A stretch of DNA of 42,104 nt from Acidobacteriota bacterium. GTDB lineage: Bacteria > Acidobacteriota > Terriglobia > Terriglobales > Acidobacteriaceae. Every line of letters begins with the position of its first letter. The stretch's first letter is position 1. The notes below the pieces were generated by a model, which was not told where the DNA came from, searched no databases, and saw only the letters and a list, made by a program, of their open reading frames with translations. The DNA lies in the NCBI GenBank assembly GCA_021792795.1, contig JAJYUB010000031.1, forward strand, positions 1-42,104, read 5' to 3'. The position numbers and the translations under genes were made by a program. Positions 5,931 through 41,760 of this stretch are shown here, piece by piece.

Positions 5931-6145
5931 GCGCAGTTCCCCTGTTTCCGGCGGCCCGGAGTGTCCCCATTTGCCGATGTTCGGGAGGATATTCGGGAGT
6001 TTGCCATGCGCATTGCAAACTGATTGGCAGCCCAGGATCAATCGCTATATCAACCCATATCAATAGGGGCAGTCAATGGGCGAGCGTTTTTTTATGCTGA
6101 ATGTCTAACGGAAGACATGCAAGATTCAAGAAGGGAGGGAAGTGC

Positions 6146-6904
6146 TTGGAACGTAGGATGTACACGGCGCGTCTGCTGGAGAAAAAACTCCTGTCGGTGA
6201 ACGCCCAGTGTTATCACCTGGAGTTCGACGTGCCAGAACTGGAGAATTTTGCCTTCGAGGCCGGCCAGTTCGTCTCCATGGTCGCCGAGGACGGCCGAGG
6301 AAAGCCCCAGACACGCGCGTATTCCATTGCGTCCGCTCCGCGCGGAAACCGGTTCGATCTTTGCCTGGACCGCGTGGACGGGGGCTTTTTTTCGAACCAG
6401 CTTTGCGACATGGAGCCTGGGGCCACGGCCCAATTCCACGGACCGTATGGATTGTTCGTGCTGCGTCCTCCACTGGAGGACACGCTGCTGATTGCCACCG
6501 GCACTGGGATTGCGCCGATGCGGGGTTTTGTGGAGACACTGTTCCCAAGCGAAGTGGAAGACCGAAGCGACGGAAAGCATTTCTGGCTGATTCATGGCAC
6601 ACGACATGAGTCGGAGCTCTACTATCGCCGCTACTTCGAGAAAGCCGCCGTTGAACATCCCAACTTTCACTATCTGCCGACATTGAGCCATCCCCATGAG
6701 GGCTGGGAGGGACTGCGTGGCTACGTGCAGACCCAGGTAAAACAACTATTACAGGAGCATCCGGCGATTTGTTCGCGGAGTGCCGATGCACCGGCGATGC
6801 AGGCATATATTTGCGGCTTGCACGAAATGGTAGCGGCCAATCGAGGACAACTTAAGGAATTGGGCTGGGACCGCAAGCAAATCCACTTCGAGCGCTACGA
6901 TTAA
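6146..6904 (+). CDS. FNR-like FAD/NAD(P)H oxidoreductase
   Basis: This protein of about 252 residues has the two-domain ferredoxin-NADP+ reductase fold. The FAD domain holds RAYSIAS (about 57-63), the RxYS motif that binds the flavin. The nucleotide domain holds TGTGIAPMRG (about 118-127) and later CGLHEM, the usual C-G-P/L-x-x-M strand end. It ends in an aromatic-containing FERYD tail. It would move electrons between NAD(P)H and a ferredoxin, flavodoxin or unknown partner in the cytoplasm. I prefer the TTG at 6146, which has AGGGAGG at 6132-6138 with 7 nt spacing; ATG 6158 is the alternative. No partner gene is adjacent, so the physiological electron acceptor is unknown. Confidence 0.85.
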   Translation: MERRMYTARLLEKKLLSVNAQCYHLEFDVPELENFAFEAGQFVSMVAEDGRGKPQTRAYSIASAPRGNRFDLCLDRVDGGFFSNQLCDMEPGATAQFHGPYGLFVLRPPLEDTLLIATGTGIAPMRGFVETLFPSEVEDRSDGKHFWLIHGTRHESELYYRRYFEKAAVEHPNFHYLPTLSHPHEGWEGLRGYVQTQVKQLLQEHPAICSRSADAPAMQAYICGLHEMVAANRGQLKELGWDRKQIHFERYD

Positions 6905-19749: not shown

Positions 19750-20109
19750 AAGAGGAAGTAGAACAGAATCCCGCCGAAAACCAAACTGCGGGAGAAGAAT
19801 CGACGTAGGTAAAGGAGGAAAGGAAAACCGACCCGCGGGGCCGTATGGCAGTGCGCCGGTGAACCCGTCCTAAGACGGTGGGAACCCGCCGCGGCTCTTT
19901 AGGCATTCCGGACTGGCGGACAGCACACCGAGCCGATTATTCGAGTCGAGTTCCCTGTTCAATGAATGTAGGTTCAACCAGCGTTGACCACCCTACCTGC
20001 TTTGCAGGCCGGTTTCTACCTTGGATGCTAACTGGCAAGTGTCGGATTGGCAAGGCCGACTCTTGTCCAATGCAATTTCGGCAGTGGGTCAGTTTGAAAT
20101 CCGTGGGGG
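19750..20109. other. Intergenic with small hairpins, no gene seen
   Basis: About 360 bp lie between the lgt-like start and the ADOP stop. On the minus strand, CCGTC and GACGG form a hairpin around 19870, possibly in the lgt leader. CCTGC-TTT-GCAGG at 19996-20008 is another. I see no convincing coding frame. An Rfam covariance search would show whether the leader hairpin belongs to a known RNA. Confidence 0.4.
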
Positions 20110-32482: not shown

Positions 32483-32884
32483 GCTGCGGCCAGCGCGCCT
32501 GACGACAGCCAGGGCATTTTTCCCATTTTTATGTAGGGCCGAAGGCGGAGTCCGATATGGAGTGGCCCTGTCAACTCCTGCGCAACGTGGCGTTTTTGCC
32601 GTTGTTGTTGCTTTTTGCAGTTGTTCGAGGGCAGGGCCATTCTCTCGGCAGTCGAGGGCGCTGGAGTCGTTTGCGGCCCAGGCGAAATCGTTCAAGCCGC
32701 TCGACCCGGCCATCTCTGACCGATTCTGGAAACCTCGGCGGAGGCCGCCGAGAAAAACATGAAGTGGCGTCTAACGATCCATGAGCCGGTGGCGGTGGAT
32801 TTTCGATTCCCAGCGCATACCTTCAGGAATGGACTGCAAGGGCCCCGTGGCCCTGCCCTCGGCAAGTGGAACAAGACCTCGTAA
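32483..32884. other. Intergenic debris, no intact gene
   Basis: About 400 bp after the duplicated segment contain only short open frames. A 41-codon frame from ATG 32759 to TAA 32884 is in phase with the AbiEii remnant that follows but is not recognisable. Confidence 0.4.
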
Positions 32885-33011
32885 CCTGTCGCGCTATGTG
32901 ACCTGTTCAATGCCTCCGAGCTGCAAGGCAAGATCGCTTTCCGCAGTGGCACTGCGCTCCACAAGCTGCTCTTCGCGCAACCGTTGCGGTATTCCAAAGA
33001 CATCGACATTG
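32885..33011 (+). pseudogene. AbiEii/nucleotidyltransferase toxin fragment
   Basis: The frame after a TAA (32882-32884) reads LCDLFNASELQGKIAF..SGTALHKLLFAQPLRYSKDIDI. This is the diagnostic G-G/S-T-A-L-x-K and R(Y/F)SxDID pattern of AbiEii-type nucleotidyltransferase toxins of abortive-infection systems. Only about 40 residues remain and no start codon is visible. It is fused in frame to an unrelated aldolase fragment. Confidence 0.75.
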
Positions 33012-33212
33012 CGCGAGCTTCTGAGATGCCGAATGTCTGGGGGCTGAAAGATAGCTCTGGGGAGATCGGATACATCAAAGAAGTGCTCGCGCCGGTTGCG
33101 GATAAGCAGGAATTTTCCGTGCTGGTGGGGCCGGAACATCTGCTGGCAGAGGCACTGCAGTGCGGCGCGCATGGCGGAGTTCCGGGGGGCGCCAATATAT
33201 TCCCGATTTGTC
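33012..33212 (+). pseudogene. Dihydrodipicolinate synthase-family fragment
   Basis: The reading ASEMPNVWGLKDSSGEIGYIKEVLAP, then GPEHLLAEALQCGAHGGVPGGANIFP, is the central part of a DapA/NAL-family aldolase. It includes the Schiff-base lysine motif GLKDSSG. About 66 residues remain of roughly 300. The frame then runs into unrelated sequence. It is joined in frame to the AbiEii piece. Confidence 0.8.
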
Positions 33213-33234
33213 CAGCGTGGATTACGGTCTCAGT

Positions 33235-33519
33235 AAGGAGATGGAATTTTTTGAAAATATTCTGAGACAGGCCACGGGATTTCAAGTCCGTTATGAATCG
33301 CGCGGCGGCTTCCTCGACGGTTGGCACCTCTTTCTGCCCGTCCGCTTCCCACTCACGAACCAGCTTATTCGCCGCTTCCCAGTTCGTGAGATCGAGCGAC
33401 CGCCAGATTTTTTCGCCCCGCAAAACCCACTGTACCCATATCGGGCAAAAACACTTCACCCTATGAGATTTGTACTTGCACGTCGCGCGATGCCTTCGAT
33501 AGAGCGTCAGCATGACCAC
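33235..33519 (-). pseudogene. N-terminal fragment of a tyrosine recombinase (integrase)
   Basis: The minus-strand frame starts LTLYRRHRATCKYKSH with the Cys pattern C..C.C (CKCPIW-like CFCPIW), then SLDLTNWEAANKLVREWEADG and AAARFITDLKSRGLSQNIFKKF. This matches the Arm/zinc-like start and the core-binding domain opening of phage-type integrases. It is cut after about 95 residues, where the aldolase fragment begins on the other strand, so the catalytic domain with R..HxxR..Y is missing. The frame stays open beyond but encodes unrelated residues. Confidence 0.8.
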
Positions 33520-33746: not shown

Positions 33747-33956
33747 TTAGAAAGTCATCCGTGTTCGGGTGAAGCGTTCAAGCTCGCTTTCGGAGATTCG
33801 GAAGCAATCGTAGACCCGATGCCTCTTATTCGACCGTTCCGAGATTTTGAACGCCCGCAGTAGCTTCCTTTGTATCCAGCGGCGCACCGTATCACAGGAG
33901 ACGCCACGCCGATCTGCGACTTCCTTCACTGACAGCCACTTCTCATTGGAATCCAT
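33747..33956 (-). CDS. Excisionase-like helix-turn-helix protein
   Basis: A 69-residue DNA-binding protein. The winged-helix pattern WLSVKEVADRRGVSCDTVRRWIQRKLLRAFKI, then YDCFRISESELERF, is typical of MerR/excisionase-type (helix_turn_helix_17) proteins. It may direct excision of the island or regulate its genes. A GGAG site precedes the ATG. It has its own terminator downstream and sits next to the attachment-site remnant. A possible -10 (TATAAT, 34073-34078, minus strand) and an inverted repeat CTACCC-AAA-GGGTAG (34047-34061) lie upstream. Confidence 0.82.
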   Translation of the reverse strand: MDSNEKWLSVKEVADRRGVSCDTVRRWIQRKLLRAFKISERSNKRHRVYDCFRISESELERFTRTRMTF

Positions 33957-34204: not shown

Positions 34205-34399
34205 TGCCGCACCGTCCTAGCCGATAGGCGTACCCGATAGGGCGAGCGCGAGCGACGGGCAATCTCCTGTTTTCCCTCCTCATCTCTTTCGCTATCGCTC
34301 TCGTTCTTCGTCGTTCAACCCTAGCGGGCGGGCGCAGGAGATTGCCCGTCGCTCGCGCTCGCCCTATCGGGTACGCCTATCGGCTAGGACGGTGCGGCA
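34205..34399. repeat. Perfect 65-bp inverted repeat with 65-nt spacer
   Basis: The arm at 34205-34269 is an exact reverse complement of the arm at 34335-34399. The spacer at 34270-34334 is pyrimidine-rich on the plus strand. The arms are GC-rich and contain no recognised coding sequence. Extruded, it would form a very stable cruciform or single-strand hairpin. It stands at the left end of the rightward gene block of the island, about 55 bp before the first gene. Possible roles are a single-strand replication or transfer origin, a MITE-like element, or a bidirectional terminator. I see no target-site duplication. Confidence 0.95.
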
Positions 34400-34972: not shown

Positions 34973-35587
34973 ATGCCGCTGCCCGGCGAAACCAAATACT
35001 CCGCTCTGCGCGGACTTTTTATCTTTCTTTGCCTGCTCCTTATTGCCGCAGCCTCGTACCGTTCCTGCAACCGCGTGATCGAGAGTCATAGGAATAATGC
35101 GTCCACCCTTGTTCCCGTTGCCACTGCCCCTCCATCGCCCTCCCCCCGAGAGGGTTCCAAACCTACGCCCCTGCCACCCCCTCCAAAACCGGACTACAAA
35201 CTGAACCCAATTTCTCCCACTTCCAGCGCTGATCCCAACTATCCCACCACAATCGACGAATGCCATCGTACCGGCGACAACATCCGTTGTTCGGGAAGGA
35301 TAACGAACTATACCGATGCCCCGACGACCATTTACCTCTGCGACAGTACCGCTGTCGATGACGAAGGCAACTCCTTCTTTATCGGATCCTTCATGGGCGT
35401 TGATGTCCATTTTGCCGGTTTCGGCGACGAGGAACGCATCATGCCGAACGTACCCACCAAGTTCATTGTTATCATCCCCGACCCCCACCGCAATGTGAAA
35501 GCAGTCAACATCCAGCTCGCCATCAATACTTGCTCAGCCGAACCTCCGATACAAACGCTTATCTTCACGAAGGTGCCTGTCCAATGA
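34973..35587 (+). CDS. Single-TM protein with proline-rich linker
   Basis: A 204-residue protein. One membrane helix lies at about 14-30 (GLFIFLCLLLIAAASY), followed by a Pro/Ser-rich linker (about 50-85). A beta-rich C-terminal domain follows (CSGRITNYTDAPTTIYLCDSTAVDDEGNSF), similar in pattern to FxLYD/DUF-type exported domains. It begins 6 bp after the previous gene and its stop overlaps the ATPase start as ATGA (35584-35587). The tight linkage suggests a joint function with the ATPase. Function unknown. Confidence 0.75.
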   Translation: MPLPGETKYSALRGLFIFLCLLLIAAASYRSCNRVIESHRNNASTLVPVATAPPSPSPREGSKPTPLPPPPKPDYKLNPISPTSSADPNYPTTIDECHRTGDNIRCSGRITNYTDAPTTIYLCDSTAVDDEGNSFFIGSFMGVDVHFAGFGDEERIMPNVPTKFIVIIPDPHRNVKAVNIQLAINTCSAEPPIQTLIFTKVPVQ

Positions 35588-37065
35588 CCTATAAGTTGCC
35601 ATTTCAATCAAAAATCCCTTCCACGCCCTTCCTCAAGCGGGTGGATCCGCAACCCTTCATCAGCTACACCAACCTATCCGAATCACCGCACGAGCGCCTC
35701 GAAATACCCGCAAAAAGCCGCTTCCGCCATGTCTATATCGCCGGCGCTTCGCAGTACGGAAAATCCACGCTCCTCGAACACATGATTGCGCAGGACATTA
35801 TGAATGACGAGGGCATTACCCTTCTCGACCCGAAGGGCGACCTCGCCGAAGCCGTGCTCAACCGCGTGCCCCCGCGCCGTTCCTCCCAGTGCATATACAT
35901 CGACATCAAGAACCCGATCCCGATCAATTTCATGGGATGGAAAACGGAAGAAGAGCGCCAGACGCTCCTTGCCGACGTCAACCAGACCTTCATGCGCTTT
36001 TCCACGATGGCAGCGGGCGACCAGTGGGGTTCCATCCTTCGCTGGGTCATCTATACGCTGCTCTCCGCCAAGCGCGTTTCCTTCCTCGACATTTACCACT
36101 TTTTTGCGGATCAAGAGCGGCGTAACCAGATTCTCACCCTTGTCAAAGAGAACAACGAGGCCGGAAGATACGATGACATTCTCCACTATTGGGAGAAGAT
36201 ATTTCCGAAGATCGGCAAGCCGCGCGAAGGCCCCATCCTCACCCGCATGTCAACTTTCATCACCACACCTCCGCTTAAAAGGATGCTAGGGCCTTCGCCA
36301 AAACCTTTCGACATTTTCAACGCGATGGAGAACCGCAAAATCCTCATCGTCAATCTCATGGGCGTCGGACGCGAGAACGGCAACCTTGTCGGCGCATTGC
36401 TCACCTCGAAAATCCAACAAGCCGCGTTCCGACGCCAGAGCCAGAAGAAGTCCGATCGCGTACCTCACTACTTCTATGCAGATGAATTTCAGAACTTTCA
36501 AACGAGCGACTTCGACCGCATTCTCTCCGAGGCAGGCGGATTCAAGCTGTCCCTCACGCTTGCCAATCAGGGCCTCTACCAGCTTGACAGCCAGATCAAA
36601 CAGTCTGTTTTTACCAATGTAAATGCCGCCCGCATCGCTTTCCATTTGAATCACGAAGACGTCTCAAACTGGAAGCATCTGCTGCCGAAATTCGATGAAA
36701 ACATTCCTGACCGTATTTCCATAGAACCAGACCAACTCGCGAATCTCCCTCCGTACTGCGCCTTTTTCAAGATTGGTAATGAAGAGGGGATCATTGCGCC
36801 GACCCCTCCACCCCTGCTGCCGCCAACCCCAGAGCAACGCACAAATGCAGAAAAGATCAGGAAGGACACGCTCGATACTTATGGCGGTACGCATTCCACT
36901 TCCGCTGAAAACGGCCAGAATCGCTCTGAGGACAAGGCGCCTTGCAATCCTCAGCAAGAACGCCATGATTATAGTAATGAACGCCGCACAGCAATCGCCG
37001 AGAAGCCTGAAGTCCAGCCGGGCAGCGCTCCCGGCAACATTCCGCCTCACGAAAATAAAACGTGA
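35584..37065 (+). CDS. TraG/VirD4/HerA-like DNA-translocating ATPase 1
   Basis: A 493-residue soluble P-loop ATPase of the FtsK-HerA superfamily, like conjugative coupling proteins. Walker A is GASQYGKST (54-62). The second-strand motif is LLDPKGD (81-86). Walker B is YFYADEFQNF, with D300 and E301. The later LANQGLYQL segment corresponds to the arginine-finger or sensor region. No membrane helices are visible, unlike VirD4, so it may dock to the two small membrane proteins encoded upstream. The last 100 residues are a hydrophilic Pro/Glu/Asn tail. The next gene starts within this tail. Confidence 0.88.
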   Translation: MTYKLPFQSKIPSTPFLKRVDPQPFISYTNLSESPHERLEIPAKSRFRHVYIAGASQYGKSTLLEHMIAQDIMNDEGITLLDPKGDLAEAVLNRVPPRRSSQCIYIDIKNPIPINFMGWKTEEERQTLLADVNQTFMRFSTMAAGDQWGSILRWVIYTLLSAKRVSFLDIYHFFADQERRNQILTLVKENNEAGRYDDILHYWEKIFPKIGKPREGPILTRMSTFITTPPLKRMLGPSPKPFDIFNAMENRKILIVNLMGVGRENGNLVGALLTSKIQQAAFRRQSQKKSDRVPHYFYADEFQNFQTSDFDRILSEAGGFKLSLTLANQGLYQLDSQIKQSVFTNVNAARIAFHLNHEDVSNWKHLLPKFDENIPDRISIEPDQLANLPPYCAFFKIGNEEGIIAPTPPPLLPPTPEQRTNAEKIRKDTLDTYGGTHSTSAENGQNRSEDKAPCNPQQERHDYSNERRTAIAEKPEVQPGSAPGNIPPHENKT

Positions 37066-37840
37066 CACACTCGCGCTTCTCGCCGAGTATTTTTGCCTCC
37101 GCACGAATGACGCAGCCGCGATACTCCGCAGTAGGATTCCGACCGAGTCGGACAGGCGCACGTTCCGTCACACGCTTGGCTCACTGTACAAAGCCGGACT
37201 CGTCTATAGACTCCCGTATCTTGACCTCGACCGCGAGCGCGGCCCAGTAAATTATGTCTACGGCCTGTCGGACAAAGGCGTGAAGTATTGCGCCGAGTTT
37301 TATGATGGCAGGTGCAAAACATTCGACGACCATTCCCAACGGACTCTCGACCACGAACTAGAAATTTCGATGTTCCATTCTGTGCTCAAGGGACTATGTA
37401 TGAGAAAGCACTTTCCACTCTATTGGCAGCAGGACGACTTGAAATGCACAGTGAACCCCGATGCCATGTTTGCCATCACAAACCCAGCACTGCCGGACGG
37501 CAGAAATACGTTTTACTATTTTCTCGAAATCGAACGAGCAAAAATGGGCAATTATAAAGACGGTGAATCTTCAATCATGAGGAAGCTCGCTAAATACTAC
37601 GAATATTACAATTCGGCGAGTTGCAAAAAAGAATGGGGAAACTTTCAGCACTTCAGGGTTGTCGTAGTACAGCGCACAGAAGATCGGAGGAACAATCTCC
37701 TACAGGAGCTTCATATACGGTTCAATCACCGTATGTTTTGGCTCACGACCGAATTGTTGTACAAGGAAGACATCGGCGCAGCAATCTTTAGAACGCCAAA
37801 GGACCTAGACTCACGGGCATATTCGTTCCTGGACTTATAA
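36965..37840 (+). CDS. Replication-relaxation family protein
   Basis: A protein of about 291 residues whose start overlaps the preceding ATPase gene by about 100 bp. The N-terminal winged-helix part (KRDTLALLAEYFCLRTNDAAAILRSR, then LYKAGLVYRLPY) and the catalytic-like region (TLDHELEISMFHSVL, then PDAMFAITNPA and FYYFLEIERAKMG) match the Replic_Relax family found in plasmids and integrative elements. The second region resembles a nuclease-like PD-(D/E)xK core, with D in NPDAMF and E-x-E in FLEIER. It could nick or bind the element's DNA for transfer. ATG 36965 or 36977 are possible starts. Confidence 0.82.
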   Translation: MIIVMNAAQQSPRSLKSSRAALPATFRLTKIKRDTLALLAEYFCLRTNDAAAILRSRIPTESDRRTFRHTLGSLYKAGLVYRLPYLDLDRERGPVNYVYGLSDKGVKYCAEFYDGRCKTFDDHSQRTLDHELEISMFHSVLKGLCMRKHFPLYWQQDDLKCTVNPDAMFAITNPALPDGRNTFYYFLEIERAKMGNYKDGESSIMRKLAKYYEYYNSASCKKEWGNFQHFRVVVVQRTEDRRNNLLQELHIRFNHRMFWLTTELLYKEDIGAAIFRTPKDLDSRAYSFLDL

Positions 37841-37971
37841 TTCCATGTTGCTAGACTATGGTGAATCGCAGCTAATAACTGCGGGGCTGGACACTCCAGC
37901 ACTCCGTCCGACTCCCCGCTCTCTCGCCGTGTAATCCACGCTCCTGATGGGGGCGGGGACGCGGACCAAAT
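37841..37971 (+). promoter_or_regulatory. Structured leader before ATPase 2
   Basis: GCGGGG (37881-37886) can pair with CCCCGC (37914-37919). Inside it CTGGA-CAC-TCCAG (37887-37899) forms a nested hairpin. No T tract follows, so it is not an obvious terminator. It may be a leader RNA or protein-binding element. Confidence 0.35.
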
Positions 37972-39210
37972 ATGAACATCTCCATTGGCACAGATTCAAT
38001 ATCAGGCCACGAGGTCTTGCTCGATTCCACCAAGCACATCAATATCGATGGGATGAGCGGAATGGGCAAGTCCACCTTGCTCGTCAACCTGTTTATCGAA
38101 AATATTCGCCACGGCAATGGCGGGTTGTTTATTGATCCTCACGGCGATACCGCCGACCAAATTACGAGGCTCATACCAAAGAACCGGATGCGCGACTTCA
38201 TCTGGATAGACCCCGATGCTTCTCTCGTTCCGCCGTTCAATCCGCTCCATTTCAACTCTCCGGAAGAATTGGAGCTTGGCAAGGAGTCGCTTTTCACCAC
38301 CTTCAAATCACTCGCGGGATCAGCATGGGGCGACGAATCTGCCCGTGTCATTATCAATGCCATCGACGCGGTGTGCGAATACTTCGATCAGCCGACGCCG
38401 GTCCACATCTTCCGATTCATGGCGGACGACAAGTTCCGGAAAAAAGTTCTAACCGCTACTGACAACCCCCTGCTGAAGATGTTCAAAGAGCAGTACGACG
38501 AAAAGCTCCGGGACTCAGAGCAGATGTCCAAGTTTTCGCCGCCGATCAACAAGGTTGGCAAATTGCTCCGGCCTTCCATCATCCCCATCATCGGCCAGAC
38601 AAAATCTCTCGACTTCCTCGACATCATGAACACCAAGAAGATCGTCGTGTGTCGATTCTCCAAGGGGAGGCTCGGCGAAGAGATCGCACAAATACTCGGC
38701 TCTCTCATCGTTTCGATGGTCTCCATCTCCGCCCTAAAGCGTGAGAAGCAGAAAGCGCGTCCGCCCTTCATGCTCGTTGCCGACGAGGTTCACAACTTCG
38801 TCCACGGCGGCAGATTCGGAACGCTGTTGGCGGAATCCCGCAAGTACGGCATCACGCTCGTGCTGGCCAGCCAGGGAATGTACCAGCTTCCTTTTGCCAA
38901 AGACGTATTCTCAAACTGCCCTACGCAGATCACCTTCAACGTCTCCGGCGACGACGCCAAGGCCATCGAGGAGAACTGGAACGAGGAGCAGGTCCAGGCG
39001 ACGCACATCACATCGCTCCCTCGATACAGCTTTTATTGCCGGACATTCATTGATGATCTTCCCCACGCCAGGAGGGTAGCCGGTTGGCCGTCCGTGCAGA
39101 AGCGAGGCGACGAATCGAACCCCACCAGGTTGATAAAGCAATCCTTGATGCGTTGGGGGACGAAGCGGAAAGACGTGATCGAAAAGATAAATCGTTTCCT
39201 TGCGAGTTGA
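37972..39210 (+). CDS. TraG/VirD4/HerA-like DNA-translocating ATPase 2
   Basis: A 412-residue soluble ATPase. Walker A is GMSGMGKST (27-35). DPHGD (55-59) is the second-strand motif and MLVADEVHNF, with D271 and E272, is Walker B. The LASQGMYQL segment resembles that of ATPase 1. The two proteins are clearly of the same superfamily but distinct in sequence and length. No membrane helix or N-terminal domain precedes the P-loop. The last five codons (RFLAS and stop) lie within the first copy of the direct repeat. It lies after the replication-relaxation gene, so the pair brackets it. Confidence 0.88.
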   Translation: MNISIGTDSISGHEVLLDSTKHINIDGMSGMGKSTLLVNLFIENIRHGNGGLFIDPHGDTADQITRLIPKNRMRDFIWIDPDASLVPPFNPLHFNSPEELELGKESLFTTFKSLAGSAWGDESARVIINAIDAVCEYFDQPTPVHIFRFMADDKFRKKVLTATDNPLLKMFKEQYDEKLRDSEQMSKFSPPINKVGKLLRPSIIPIIGQTKSLDFLDIMNTKKIVVCRFSKGRLGEEIAQILGSLIVSMVSISALKREKQKARPPFMLVADEVHNFVHGGRFGTLLAESRKYGITLVLASQGMYQLPFAKDVFSNCPTQITFNVSGDDAKAIEENWNEEQVQATHITSLPRYSFYCRTFIDDLPHARRVAGWPSVQKRGDESNPTRLIKQSLMRWGTKRKDVIEKINRFLAS

Positions 39211-39427
39211 GCGTAATTGGCGTCAGTACTTACCGACTATACTCGTTCGCATAGCCTGAATCTGGCGCACAATTTTATCTGTGACATTTCCTCACCACCA
39301 CCGAGCACCCCTCATGGGAATCACGATAAGCCACCGCGTGCGGACGGACATTTGCGAGGCCGCGATAACAATCTCGCGCCGCTTTTTGATGGAACGAAAT
39401 GCCACTGTTGCGAATGCAGGGGGAAGA
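39194..39427 (+). repeat. Cassette-head direct repeat, copy 1
   Basis: About 235 bp, beginning in the last codons of ATPase 2 and about 95% identical by eye to 39982-40219. It contains the promoter-like pair TTGGCG (39217-39222) and TATACT (39238-39243) with a 15-nt spacer. A short reading frame from GTG shares 21 residues with the one in copy 2 but then diverges. Copy 2 has a 4-nt insertion in the middle. Confidence 0.92.
39217..39243 (+). promoter_or_regulatory. Promoter-like motif in repeat copy 1
   Basis: TTGGCG and TATACT are separated by 15 nt, shorter than ideal. The element is conserved in copy 2 (TTGGCG 40005-40010, TATATT 40026-40031), so each cassette may carry its own promoter. 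Confidence 0.4.
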
Positions 39428-39448
39428 CAAACTTTAACCACCACAACT

Positions 39449-39823
39449 ATGAACTACGAATTGCGTGAGAAGCTGTTAGAACCCTACTATGACGAGGGCG
39501 AATATGGCGGCCTGCGCTACTTTACCTGTTTGCCTACGGATGTTCTCGATGAGTTGATAAGTCACAACTTCGTTGAGATGGAAGAGTGGAACTGCTGCGA
39601 TGGTGTTGCGAAGCTATTTTTACCGTTCCTTCACAGAAATCCGCAATTCACAGCACATGGATATGCGGTGATGGAAGGACGGGAGGATATTCGCATTACC
39701 ATTGAGGGGGTTGCGCGCTCTGCCGTTTTAACCGTGGACGAGCTCATCGACTTTGCGACGACATTCCGAGGCGCGGATGAAATGGAGTTGACTGCCGATT
39801 ACGCCCGCTGCTGGTACGACTAA
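39449..39823 (+). CDS. Cassette 1 cargo: acidic hypothetical protein
   Basis: A 124-residue acidic protein starting MNYELREKLLEPYYDEG. It has one Cys pair (NCCDG) and no membrane segment. I do not recognise it. It follows repeat copy 1 and may be expressed from the promoter-like motif there. Its frame is open further upstream into the repeat. The lack of similarity to the cargo of cassette 2 is what makes the array look modular. Confidence 0.65.
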   Translation: MNYELREKLLEPYYDEGEYGGLRYFTCLPTDVLDELISHNFVEMEEWNCCDGVAKLFLPFLHRNPQFTAHGYAVMEGREDIRITIEGVARSAVLTVDELIDFATTFRGADEMELTADYARCWYD

Positions 39824-39893
39824 GCGACAATGAAGGGATGTTCCCTGTGTACAAACTAACCCTTCTCCCTGCAACGCAACCCAAGTAGATATC

Positions 39894-39998
39894 GTGACCG
39901 CCCTCGAACAAGCCGCCAAACTTCAACCGCAAGCCATTAGCGTTCTCCTCTTTGAGCGTGAACAGGTGGAACGCACAGACTGTTTCCTTGCGAGTTGA
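39894..39998 (+). pseudogene. Truncated copy of the cassette-tail gene
   Basis: A 34-residue frame starts at GTG with VTALEQAAKLQPQAISVLLFEREQVE. It matches the N-terminus of the intact gene at 40745-40942 (MTVLEQVAQLKQQAIELLLNERERI). The match stops where repeat copy 2 begins, and the frame then ends on FLAS and stop, exactly the tail of ATPase 2. The upstream CCCTTCTCCCTGC/ACGCAAC stretch is also shared with the intact copy. It is a recombination-truncated duplicate. Confidence 0.85.
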
Positions 39999-40219
39999 GC
40001 GTAATTGGCGTCAGTACTTACCGACTATATTCGTTCGCATAGCCTGAATCTGGCGCATACTTTTATCTGTGACATTTCCTCACCGCCAACGAGCACCCCT
40101 CATGGGAATCACGATAAGCCACCGCGTGCGTGCGGACGGACATTCGCGAGGCCGCGAGAACCAACTCGCGCCGCTTATTGATGGGAACGAAATGCCGCAG
40201 TTGCCGAAGCAGGGAAAGG
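39982..40219 (+). repeat. Cassette-head direct repeat, copy 2
   Basis: The second copy of the roughly 235-bp repeat. It differs from copy 1 by about ten substitutions, a 4-nt GTGC insertion and a 1-nt insertion. It heads a different cargo. It begins with the same GTTTCCTTGCGAGTTGA that ends ATPase 2. Confidence 0.92.
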
Positions 40220-40236
40220 CACAATCAATTCACACA

Positions 40237-40476
40237 ATGGAATACTGTACTGTTTGCCACCGTGAAGTTCATGGTGGTTTTGAAGTGTCTTCGCAAGAAT
40301 CAAAAGGTCCAGACCAACCTTTCATGGTCATCATTGAGGACACGCCTGATCGAGACTTCAACGTCTGCGATTTGTGCAACGACACGATTTGCTTCGACTG
40401 CTCAATCGACAAGGACTCTGGGTATTGCAATGCCTGTCATTCAAAGATCTTTGGGAGAACATCCCAGCGGCAATGA
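40237..40476 (+). CDS. Cassette 2 cargo A: small Cys-rich zinc-binding protein
   Basis: A 79-residue protein with four Cx2C pairs: CTVC (4-7), CDLC (about 47-50), CFDC (about 55-58) and CNAC (about 67-70). This is a compact treble-clef or RING-like zinc arrangement. Its stop overlaps the next start by ATGA (40473-40476). It may be a protein- or nucleic-acid-binding partner. The family is not recognised. Confidence 0.7.
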   Translation: MEYCTVCHREVHGGFEVSSQESKGPDQPFMVIIEDTPDRDFNVCDLCNDTICFDCSIDKDSGYCNACHSKIFGRTSQRQ

Positions 40477-40709
40477 ATCGACCCGTGGTGCGGATATTCC
40501 AGGGATACTATGTCGATACATGCGAAGAGGATTGTCTACTGTTCGTTGCAGACGAGAATTGTGACTGCGAAGCTGAGTTCAGGAAAGCGTACACGGTTCA
40601 CTATGGAGCGTTAGCTGAGGATGCTGAAATCCTTGGTGTCTACTTAGTAAACCGCCTGTACTATAACGGAGTCGAAAAGGAATATCGCATCCAGGTTGTC
40701 GAAAAATAA
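40473..40709 (+). CDS. Cassette 2 cargo B: small acidic protein
   Basis: A 78-residue acidic protein with two Cys pairs (CEEDC and CDC). It is translationally coupled to the Cys-rich protein by ATGA, so the two likely act together. No membrane segment or recognised domain. Confidence 0.65.
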   Translation: MNRPVVRIFQGYYVDTCEEDCLLFVADENCDCEAEFRKAYTVHYGALAEDAEILGVYLVNRLYYNGVEKEYRIQVVEK

Positions 40710-40744
40710 ACCGCCCTTCCCTGCTACGCAACAGAAAGGATCAC

Positions 40745-40942
40745 ATGACAGTACTCGAACAAGTCGCTCAGCTTAAACAGCAAGCAATCGAGTTGCTCCT
40801 TAACGAGCGGGAACGGATCGATTCAGAACTAAACCAGCTCGGCTACGGGCAAGAAAACGCCCCGTCCGGTAAAAGACGGGGCAGGAGGCCAAAGGCGGTT
40901 ATTGAGTCGGAAGACCTTGCGCTTGTCGCTTCCCATTCCTGA
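40745..40942 (+). CDS. Cassette-tail gene: AT-hook-like small protein
   Basis: A 65-residue protein with an N-terminal helix (LEQVAQLKQQAIELLLNERERIDSEL) and a basic KRRGRRPK segment like an AT-hook, typical of DNA-minor-groove binding. AGAAAGGA precedes the ATG. A truncated relative lies at the end of cassette 1. The gene contains the terminator of the convergent CHC2 gene and overlaps that gene's 3' end by 44 bp. Confidence 0.7.
   Translation: MTVLEQVAQLKQQAIELLLNERERIDSELNQLGYGQENAPSGKRRGRRPKAVIESEDLALVASHS
40851..40882 (-). terminator. Terminator of the CHC2-type gene
   Basis: GCCCCGTC (40859-40866) and GACGGGGC (40875-40882) form a perfect 8-bp stem. On the minus strand GTTTTCTTG follows. 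It lies inside the convergent small gene. Confidence 0.65.
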
Positions 40943-41474
40943 AGGATTCGATCAGCTTGGCTTTCACGCCGTTCCGGGTACGCTTCCAGTAGTCCACATC
41001 GACTTCTTTCTCGCGACGTTTGAAGAGTTCATCGAACCAAGCATCAATCCCCTGCATGTACTTGACGCTATCGCCCGACGAGCTATGATCTGGAGAGTCC
41101 TTCCGATGTGTTTCCATGCGAGACACCTCTGGCCGCCTCTCAATCTGAGGGGCGGCTTTATTTCCGTTCAGCCCGTACCATCCAGCCAGCTTTTCTGCCG
41201 CTTCCTTCTCACGGCAGCTTTCCATCAAGGCGACAAAGTTGATCACATCGCCGCCCTTTTTCCCGCCGTTGTTTTCATTGCAGGATGCCGAAAAGCACCT
41301 CCAGTAGTTGCCCTTCACGTTGATCGAAAAGCTCTTCGATTTGTCGCCCTGTTTGTGCGTCGGCAATGGGCAGGCGCAGTTTGCGTAGTCGCCTTTGCAC
41401 GCGAGCTGAAGATGATAATGCACGGTCGCCACATCGACGGCAGGAATACGCTTGATTGCTTCGAAGTCGAGCAT
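40899..41474 (-). CDS. CHC2 zinc-finger (DnaG-type primase) domain protein
   Basis: A 191-residue protein. The CHC2 zinc-binding motif of bacterial primases is visible as CPLPTH (about residues 35-40) and CFSASC (about 60-65), followed by GGDVINFVALMESCREKEAAEKLAGWYGL. The TOPRIM catalytic domain that makes primers is absent. The C-terminal half is hydrophilic and basic. It may help initiate replication or bind single-stranded DNA of the element. GGAGGA lies just upstream of ATG 41474, which fixes the start. Confidence 0.88.
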   Translation of the reverse strand: MLDFEAIKRIPAVDVATVHYHLQLACKGDYANCACPLPTHKQGDKSKSFSINVKGNYWRCFSASCNENNGGKKGGDVINFVALMESCREKEAAEKLAGWYGLNGNKAAPQIERRPEVSRMETHRKDSPDHSSSGDSVKYMQGIDAWFDELFKRREKEVDVDYWKRTRNGVKAKLIESFRNGKRQAQGLPTQ

Positions 41475-41760
41475 GTTTCCTCCAAACAAGAAGGCCCCTG
41501 CGCACGGCAGAGGCTTCTTATGGCTTGTGATGCGTTATTGGTTTTCGTTGTCGATTTGGCAGCGATTAGAAGAAAGGGACTGATGCGTCGCGTGAGCTAG
41601 CCGCCGAACCAGAGTTATTTCAAAGGCCTAGCTACAGCATAGGCAATTGATTCCAATTTGCAATAGCTGCGGCATCGCAAGCTTTGAGGGCTTGCAATTC
41701 TATTGAGATGCGCTACAGTGAATCGATTAAAGGTCGAGACAACTAAAATCAACAGAAGCC

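Follow-up and report, generated by a model that had tools for sequence, protein, structure and literature searches.

Exchangeable cargo genes inside a conserved and probably end-pairing mRNA frame in phage-like elements of Acidobacteriota

Two tandem cassettes behind an ATPase gene

The stretch analysed here, called the window throughout, comprises 42,104 nucleotides (nt) of an Acidobacteriota bacterium (contig JAJYUB010000031.1 of assembly GCA_021792795.1) and carries, behind the gene for a TrwB/TraG-like ATPase (ATPase2), two tandem units in which a conserved repeat (the head) is followed by protein-coding cargo, a short leader, and a small tail gene (Table 1). An original prediction, made from the sequence alone, had described these units as a cassette array formed behind a translocation gene. 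The complementary arms that flank the cargo of each unit, and that form the main subject of this report, were absent from that prediction and are new in this analysis.

The tandem arrangement is borne out by comparison of the two heads, with 39194-39349 matching 39982-40137 at 96%, 39336-39392 matching 40128-40184 at 91%, and 39391-39421 matching 40184-40214 at 84% identity, copy 2 carrying a 4-base-pair (bp) insertion. As had been proposed, the cargos of the two units (A versus B1 and B2) bear no resemblance to each other, and a common leader and tail gene follow them, the tail gene being intact in unit 2 and truncated in unit 1. The leader of unit 1, CCCTTCTCCCTGCAACGCAAC at 39860-39880, has one match in the window against 0 expected, and that of unit 2, CCCTTCCCTGCTACGCAAC at 40714-40732, has one against 0.01 expected. 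Repeat copy 2 opens at GTTTCCTTGCGAGTTGAGCG, which corresponds to the last codons of ATPase2 plus the sequence that follows them. Since the truncated tail gene ends in FLAS-stop like ATPase2 itself (...INRFLAS), copy 2 starts within ATPase2-type last codons, confirming the proposed junction.

In its own assembly (4.04 Mb, 133 contigs), the head has exactly two matches (E 2.8e-123 and 7.2e-90), and among 61 genomes (this one and 60 relatives) it was found at the window locus only. Among 399 genomes of the class, strong DNA matches occurred at two places in one further genome, G460; three others with head matches of 34-41 bases (E 2.9e-5 to 3.2e-4) were set aside. The claim that the repeat bears a promoter was not confirmed, as a sigma-70 scan returned no consensus site in either window head, and only a CATAAT/CACAAT-like stretch aligns among many heads. 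A single-stranded-DNA promoter of the Frpo-like kind was also considered and rejected for the head, with folds of both copies on both strands being no better than those of shuffles (z 0.04 to 1.15). RNAalifold drew local helices on two subsets of heads without covariation support; the head model is one of sequence only, because it contains no consensus base pair.

Table 1. Features of the two cassettes and of their surroundings in the window
Feature	Position	Strand	Details
N-terminal integrase remnant	33232..33513	-	55% identity over 93 amino acids (aa) to the integrase of viral record G470 (locus L131)
Excisionase-like HTH_17 gene	33747..33956	-	Pfam HTH_17 2.2e-9; PHROG excisionase 1.4e-8
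ATPase 1	35530..37065	+	phrog_5156; weak TraG/TraD match
Replic_Relax protein (PF13814)	36773..37840	+	Pfam 4.1e-9
ATPase2 (TrwB/TraG-like, phrog_5156), left flank of unit 1	37972..39210	+	Pfam 6.1e-7; PHROG 2.3e-41
Head of unit 1 (repeat copy 1)	39194..39435	+	Head model R1, 93.2 bits
5' arm of unit 1	39407..39426	+	GTTGCG AAT + core GCAGGGGGAAG (39416-39426); cargo ATG 22 nt downstream
Cargo A, acidic protein, 124 aa	39449..39823	+	No family found
3' arm of unit 1	39862..39880	+	Core CTTCTCCCTGC (39862-39872) + AA + CGCAAC
Truncated tail gene fused to ATPase2-type last codons (FLAS-stop)	39894..39998	+	34 codons; tail-family match 6.7e-7
Head of unit 2 (repeat copy 2)	39982..40222	+	Head model R1, 76.8 bits
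5' arm of unit 2	40200..40219	+	GTTGC CGAA + core GCAGGGAAAGG (40209-40219); cargo ATG 17 nt downstream
Cargo B1, Cys-rich protein, 79 aa	40237..40476	+	
Cargo B2, acidic protein, 78 aa	40473..40709	+	ATGA overlap with B1
3' arm of unit 2	40714..40732	+	Core CCCTTCCCTGC (40714-40724) + TA + CGCAAC
Intact tail gene, 65 aa	40745..40942	+	KRRGRRPK-type basic stretch; alignment of 9 family members
Terminator-like hairpin behind convergent primase gene, inside tail gene	40858..40883	-	
CHC2 zinc-finger primase-like gene, right flank	40899..41489	-	Pfam Zn_ribbon_DnaG 1.1e-7

The same frame in related elements

With ATPase2 as the anchor for finding related elements, its query returned nine loci in viral contigs (70-90% at the aa level). 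A nine-protein ATPase2 alignment returned two loci in genome contigs, namely L033 in a metagenome-assembled genome (MAG) of Acidobacterium sp. and L034 in an Acidobacteriaceae MAG (contig C207 of G460), and added L043, L044 and two remote loci in viral contigs. A tail-gene alignment (the L022 tail gene being left out of alignment A2) added L119 and G013, while a common-cargo alignment added L127 and matched only G013 among the 399 genomes; the head sequence model, which matched 3 of these 399, found the second unit of G013. Altogether, the layout of head, cargo and leader, often with the tail gene, occurs in 17 units of 14 elements, with two units each in the window, L034 and G013, and one each in L018, L019, L020, L021, L022, L023, L024, L026, L033, L119 and L127. 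The one-off duplication that the original prediction had named as the simpler outcome is therefore not the case, given 17 units with differing cargos.

Placement in a bacterial genome is established for four elements (the window, L033, L034 and G013); the others are viral contigs. Counting the window, 11 of the 14 elements with an ATPase2 of at least 63% identity carry the frame. The translocation gene does not hold as the defining neighbour: the L127 unit lies behind a gene other than ATPase2, the G013 units occupy two other places, and the relatives include at least one tailed phage (see below). In G013, the units lie far apart in one element (contig C50, 1740-2310 on the plus and 6128-6692 on the minus strand) that encodes a serine recombinase domain (Pfam Resolvase) and has a gene order unlike that of the window or G470.

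Among 150 relatives, ATPase2 was matched in 11 genomes, at 34% identity for the best non-self match, and ten of these loci, searched with the head model only, gave no match; the tail protein alone was matched in 2 of the 150. A leader pattern scan of the viral contigs returned 51 stretches, none of them new with a tail-like motif downstream. At gathering scores, Rfam searches of 11 sources (L119, L127 and G013 lying outside this set) returned only tRNA and 6S RNA, far from the site, the 6S RNA of the window being at 19826-20013 on the minus strand (57.5 bits). By eye, L019 has a second tail-like small gene after the first (2711-2956). Also by eye, a TCAAGGT...ACCTTGA hairpin-like stretch with a AAAGGTCGAAA-like motif before the ATG recurs behind ATPase2 in L025, L043 and L044, and in the latter two it also precedes further genes.

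Complementary arms on either side of the cargo

Each of the 17 units shows complementarity between the terminal part of its head and the leader, which comes directly after the stop codon of the last cargo gene. The pairs in the window are GTTGCGAATGCAGGGGGAAG with CTTCTCCCTGCAACGCAAC (unit 1) and GTTGCCGAAGCAGGGAAAGG with the unit 2 leader given above; further examples are GCAGGGGATGG/CCATTCCCTGC in L018, ATGGCGGTGGTGACAAG/CTTTTCGTTACCGCCAT in L020, GGGCAGGGAAAAG/CTTTTCCCTGCCC in L023, TGTAGGGAGACGG/CCGTTCCCCTACA in L024, TGTAGGGGAAAG/CTTTCCCCTACA in L127, and AAGATGTAGGGAGA/TCTCCCTACATCTT and GGGGCAAGG/CCTTGCCCC in G013. The 5' core arm ends 10-34 nt before the ATG, mostly 17-24 nt, with exactly 22 nt in 8 of the 17 units; the 3' arm lies mostly 4-38 nt past the last stop codon. 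The head model includes the 5' arm and excludes the leader, and the units of L119, L127 and G013 were found via tail gene, cargo or head sequence, not complementarity; all four display the pairing.

When the 60 nt before the first ATG were hybridized in silico with the 60 nt after the last stop codon, the duplex beat 1000 dinucleotide shuffles in 16 of 16 units (p 0.001-0.018), with p ~0.01 for the seventeenth. Own partners also outperformed swapped ones, with none of 200,000 permutations as good for the 60-nt flanks of 16 units, and again none of 200,000 for the arms only of all 17 (mean -27.9 kcal/mol for own versus -19.9 for swapped partners); an earlier version with 110-nt heads of 13 units, some with start codons placed one base off, had given p 0.0004. 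The same preference is seen within each element that carries two units, where own versus cross duplexes amount to -31.5/-30.2 versus -23.0/-23.3 in the window, -28.3/-27.1 versus -22.0/-14.3 in L034, and -25.4/-27.9 versus -9.5/-7.7 in G013.

Across 16 units and 17 paired columns, 89.7% of cells are paired versus 81.2% in shuffles, and 11 of the 17 pairs change on both sides versus a shuffled mean of 4.3, a value of 11 being reached in 1 of 500 shuffles. The covariation score is 0.344 against 0.192 in shuffles (standard deviation 0.019; 0 of 500 as high), and structures slid out of register score 0.09-0.15. The 11-pair core of these 16 units (176 cells) comprises 158 Watson-Crick pairs, 12 G.U pairs and 6 mismatches. 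In minimum-energy folds of whole messages of 514-1102 nt, at least 8 of the 11 core pairs are held in 15 of 16 units, and the nine pairs examined in the seventeenth have probabilities of 0.74-1.0.

As a control, 228 open reading frames (ORFs) of four phage records were used, two cargo ORFs being among them; their longest runs have a median of 7 pairs, with the 99% quantile at 11. At least 11 contiguous pairs with at least 10 of the Watson-Crick type were found at the two cargo ORFs and, apart from these, only in G474 (one run of 13 bp), a mark that 12 of 16 units reach. Dispersed operator sites, in the sense of many copies of one consensus, were considered and rejected: in the 13 elements tested (G013 lying outside), arm copies within one mismatch comprise the expected pairs and three single further hits. 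At two mismatches, arm-like sequences exceed shuffled patterns in several elements, e.g., 11 versus 2.9 in G468 and 6 versus 0.8 in L035.

Cargo exchange and cargo content

Different cargos occur at equivalent loci between conserved flanks, an outcome that the original prediction had named as support. L022 and L026 share 95% (aa) of their ATPase2 C-termini, 90% (nt) of their heads and 96% (nt) of their leaders, yet their first cargo genes are unrelated; the last cargo ORFs of the two are alike in length and show no clear similarity (14% for L022 when compared with L019). Between L119 and L033, the ATPase2 C-termini are 53%, the heads 90% and the cargo 60% identical, so that head and cargo seem to have moved together into a diverged background. 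These patterns would fit homologous recombination in the flanks. A site-specific recombination site common to all cassettes, as in integrons, was not found, and arm sequences vary from unit to unit, also inside a single element. The modular gain of cargo originally suggested thus stands insofar as head and cargo can move as a unit, but not for arrays as a rule: tandem pairs are present only in the window and the orthologous L034, whose corresponding units match each other (most parts at 76-88% nucleotide identity), and this shared array is best read as one old duplication. The first tail gene of L034 is degenerate by eye.

Per unit, one to three cargo ORFs encode proteins of 78-185 aa. Between the window and L034, cargo A is 76%, B1 80% and B2 66% identical, and L022 encodes a Cys-rich relative of B1 (45%) that continues into, or is followed by, an acidic ORF and then a 140-aa protein. 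One family of 143-150 aa with an SLANRK motif is present in nine units (L018, L019, L021, L023, L026, L033, L119, L127 and one of G013), with 36-77% identity to the L019 member in seven aligned proteins and 46% in L127; proteins of similar length in L020, L022 and L024 have only 14-18% identity to it. The second G013 unit encodes a 140-aa protein, and L020 also has a 91-aa second gene. For function, no cargo matched above the curated cut-offs, the best of the weak matches being Phage_GPL (7e-4, an L022 ORF) and PbeC (8.8e-4, the L024 cargo, in PADLOC). Window cargos reached only 0.038 at best in PHROGs, and a protein search with cargo A in phages and plasmids gave no match. The predicted structure of cargo A is poor (predicted local distance difference test, pLDDT, 46), and the model of the common helical cargo (pLDDT 87) had no match at E 0.001 in PDB or BFVD.

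Pairing in RNA or sites in DNA

The frame, the variation of its cargo, and the conservation and co-variation of its arms are apparent at the level of sequence. From these we consider it likely that, in a phage-like element family of Acidobacteriota, exchangeable cargo ORFs are enclosed by a conserved mRNA frame and that this frame joins the two ends of the transcript. Arm pairing would more likely act in RNA than in DNA. Core deviations from Watson-Crick pairing comprise the 12 G.U pairs, 3 A.C and 3 others, an excess of G.U on the coding strand that points to RNA of that strand. That arms differ inside a single element argues against their recognition by a common DNA-binding protein; moreover, the near-constant distance to the ATG, together with pairing in units with no tail gene behind the leader (L024, L127 and G013), points to the cargo message.

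That the arms are instead inverted DNA sites, whether an operator pair that acts by looping or recombination/inversion sites flanking the cargo, bound by an element-encoded protein, appears unlikely to us. It would agree with inverted repeats at the cargo borders of every unit, with the exchange of cargos between arms, with the one G013 unit on the strand opposite the ATPase, and with the surplus of arm-like sequences at two mismatches; however, one protein would need one site, whereas the two G013 units have different arms that form poor cross duplexes, additional copies within one mismatch are limited to the three single hits, deviations are mostly G.U on the coding strand, and the spacing to the ATG hardly varies. 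That the leader amounts to no more than the region where tail-gene translation starts, with complementarity as a by-product, is a very improbable explanation: by eye, the leader stands directly before the AAGGAG of the tail gene in several elements, but (also by eye) pairing is kept with no tail gene behind it in L024, L127 and both G013 units, and runs of the length reached by 12 of 16 units are confined, among the control ORFs, to the three cases named above. Plain tandem duplication with subsequent cargo divergence, and nothing modular about it, we regard as close to negligible. The similarity between heads and the restriction of tandem units to two mutually orthologous elements are what it would predict; the same frame nevertheless surrounds other cargos in the single units of 11 further elements and in the widely separated units of G013, and L022 and L026 have unrelated first cargos between like flanks.

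Several points weigh against closure of the message by a conserved frame. Three elements with an ATPase2 of at least 63% identity (L025, L043 and L044) lack the frame, have another upstream region and show no comparable pairing (the check on L044 having used a start placed one base off), and a head model built without L024 misses the L024 head. No local structure was supported in the heads, and, unlike in the icaR and aapA mRNAs discussed below, the arm by eye masks no Shine-Dalgarno sequence at the start codon, none being seen between arm and ATG either. Six of the twelve G.U pairs fall in one column, and by eye there is one C.A in unit 17. In 13 of the 17 units, the cargo includes a protein of 138-150 aa, and this may represent one diverged family. 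The own partner is the best one in only 9 of 17 rows (its rank ranging from 1 to 7), which is unsurprising for closely related units; the counts of paired cells are inflated since the core register was placed partly by complementarity, and the cells are not independent changes since the units are related. L020 retains no core pair in its minimum-energy fold, and four of 16 units (the second units of both tandem arrays, L026 and L024) stay below the mark of 11 contiguous pairs with 10 of the Watson-Crick type. Finally, duplex energies of the units (-28.5 to -38.0 kcal/mol) are not distinct from those of controls (5% quantile -35.4 kcal/mol), so that the signal lies in contiguity, position and covariation.

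Setting of the cassettes in a prophage-like element

G470 encodes a terminase, portal, major capsid, tape measure and integrase, and thus has the complete gene set of a tailed temperate phage. In other records, for which single proteins were tested, a major capsid was found in G468 and a terminase in G477, and the supposed portal of G477 had no match; this phage-gene scan left out G474, a record without the frame. Of the viral records fetched, three were whole and one was in part. In G470, an excisionase-like gene (by eye), a small gene, an ORF at the place of ATPase 1, Replic_Relax, ATPase2, cargo and tail gene follow one another; next come the primase on the opposite strand and, at the distal end, an integrase. 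This type of gene order is present in the window from 33.7 to 41.5 kb. Because of this order and the resemblance of the integrase remnant to the G470 integrase (a phage integrase by PHROGs and Pfam), we infer the presence of a single prophage arm in the window, which ends inside the element at the contig end. A conjugative element or plasmid, a reading prompted by the TraG-like ATPases and Replic_Relax, was rejected on the grounds of the phage genes in this one relative. A DNA search of plasmids gave no match; ATPase2 matches in 116 plasmid records were all below 60% identity (22-31% among the 20 matches listed), and those in seven phage records had 21-26%.

At 32600-33513, the integrase gene is broken off after ~90 N-terminal residues, in what looks like a decayed end or attachment junction; the fragment abutting it resembles, by eye, dihydrodipicolinate synthase. 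A perfect inverted repeat (34205-34399; 65-nt arms, 65-nt loop), possibly an assembly artefact, separates the excisionase-like gene from the element's first forward genes. At 35530-39210, the Replic_Relax gene sits between two ATPases of the phrog_5156 type; it is an unusual gene for phage-like elements, was matched in 5 of 13 viral records searched (G465 and G470-G473), and presumably encodes a MOBC-like relaxase domain, an assignment not used here. The terminator-like hairpin of the primase gene falls on the part of the tail gene that encodes the basic KRRGRRPK stretch and its surroundings, and by eye the same overlap exists in L020-L023.

Proposed working and relation to known systems

A cassette would constitute an expression unit in which the head, as a conserved 5' untranslated region (UTR), precedes between one and three exchangeable ORFs and the short leader lies on their 3' side, a single transcript running from the head through the cargo to past the leader. 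In this mRNA, the arms would pair via 11 core and up to 6 outer pairs, looping the whole cargo message. The swaps of cargo, and the single doubling of a unit, would have come about by recombination in conserved sequence to the left of the cargo (the end of ATPase2 and the head) and to its right (leader, tail gene and primase). We regard as evenly poised the further proposal that this is a reusable 5'/3' UTR frame with private arms, in which any cargo could be swapped with control kept, and in which neighbouring cassettes would avoid cross-pairing through their different arms. More tentatively, and by analogy with the hok, aapA and icaR mRNAs, the closed form may control translation or decay of the cargo message.

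Phage morons are defined by their own promoter and terminator, a definition outside which paired arms lie. Like that of morons, cassette cargo varies between conserved phage genes and is possibly transcribed as its own unit (PMC7067206). In the type I toxin mRNAs hok (plasmid R1) and aapA (Helicobacter pylori), a 3' stretch pairs with the 5' part across the ORF; in aapA this pairing is described as conserved at various loci and hides the Shine-Dalgarno sequence of a small toxin ORF (PMC6733600). The cassettes resemble these in that the stretch behind the ORF is complementary to the 5' UTR and conserved by covariation as judged from sequence; unlike in aapA, their arm does not, by eye, cover a Shine-Dalgarno sequence, their ORFs vary, and several can be enclosed. 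In the icaR mRNA of Staphylococcus aureus, a C-rich 3' motif (UCCCCUG), located 260 nt past the stop codon, pairs with a G-rich 5' motif (UAGGGGG) at the Shine-Dalgarno sequence, and compensatory changes restored pairing in vitro (PMC3868564). The cassettes likewise have a paired C-rich 3' motif, but not at the Shine-Dalgarno position, and icaR is one host gene whereas the cassette frame is reused around unrelated phage-like ORFs. The SAS/ESAS of cluster K mycobacteriophages are conserved sequences located where certain genes start, and about half of these sequences contain imperfect inverted repeats of 17 bp; SAS number 11-19 per genome with one consensus, both repeats being upstream of the gene (PMC3203893). 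Cassettes share conserved phage sequences at gene starts and inverted repeats with these, yet have one arm pair per unit that spans the gene(s) and is specific to that unit. Among the titles and abstract openings listed (at most 10 for each literature search, out of as many as 950 hits), no description of such a frame was found, and a four-term search of text from the Acidobacteriota virus paper PMC11924767 did not return the term "untranslated".

Closure might block translation until the 3' arm is removed, as for aapA mRNA (PMC6733600), might give RNase III a substrate, as for icaR (PMC3868564), or might protect the message. With an arm that in most units stops 17-24 nt short of the ATG and, by eye, no Shine-Dalgarno sequence in between, an effect on stability or on access to the A/C-rich region before the ATG would be likelier than direct masking of a canonical ribosome site.

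For individual bacterial genes (icaR, hok and aapA), pairing of the mRNA over a long distance between its 5' and 3' parts is already known. If pairing in RNA holds true for the cassettes, it would represent a portable device, kept by selection while the enclosed protein changes. It would thus also provide a natural and testable system for the effect of end-to-end mRNA closure on translation and decay, and the frame, instead of the protein sequence, could serve to find uncharacterised phage accessory genes.

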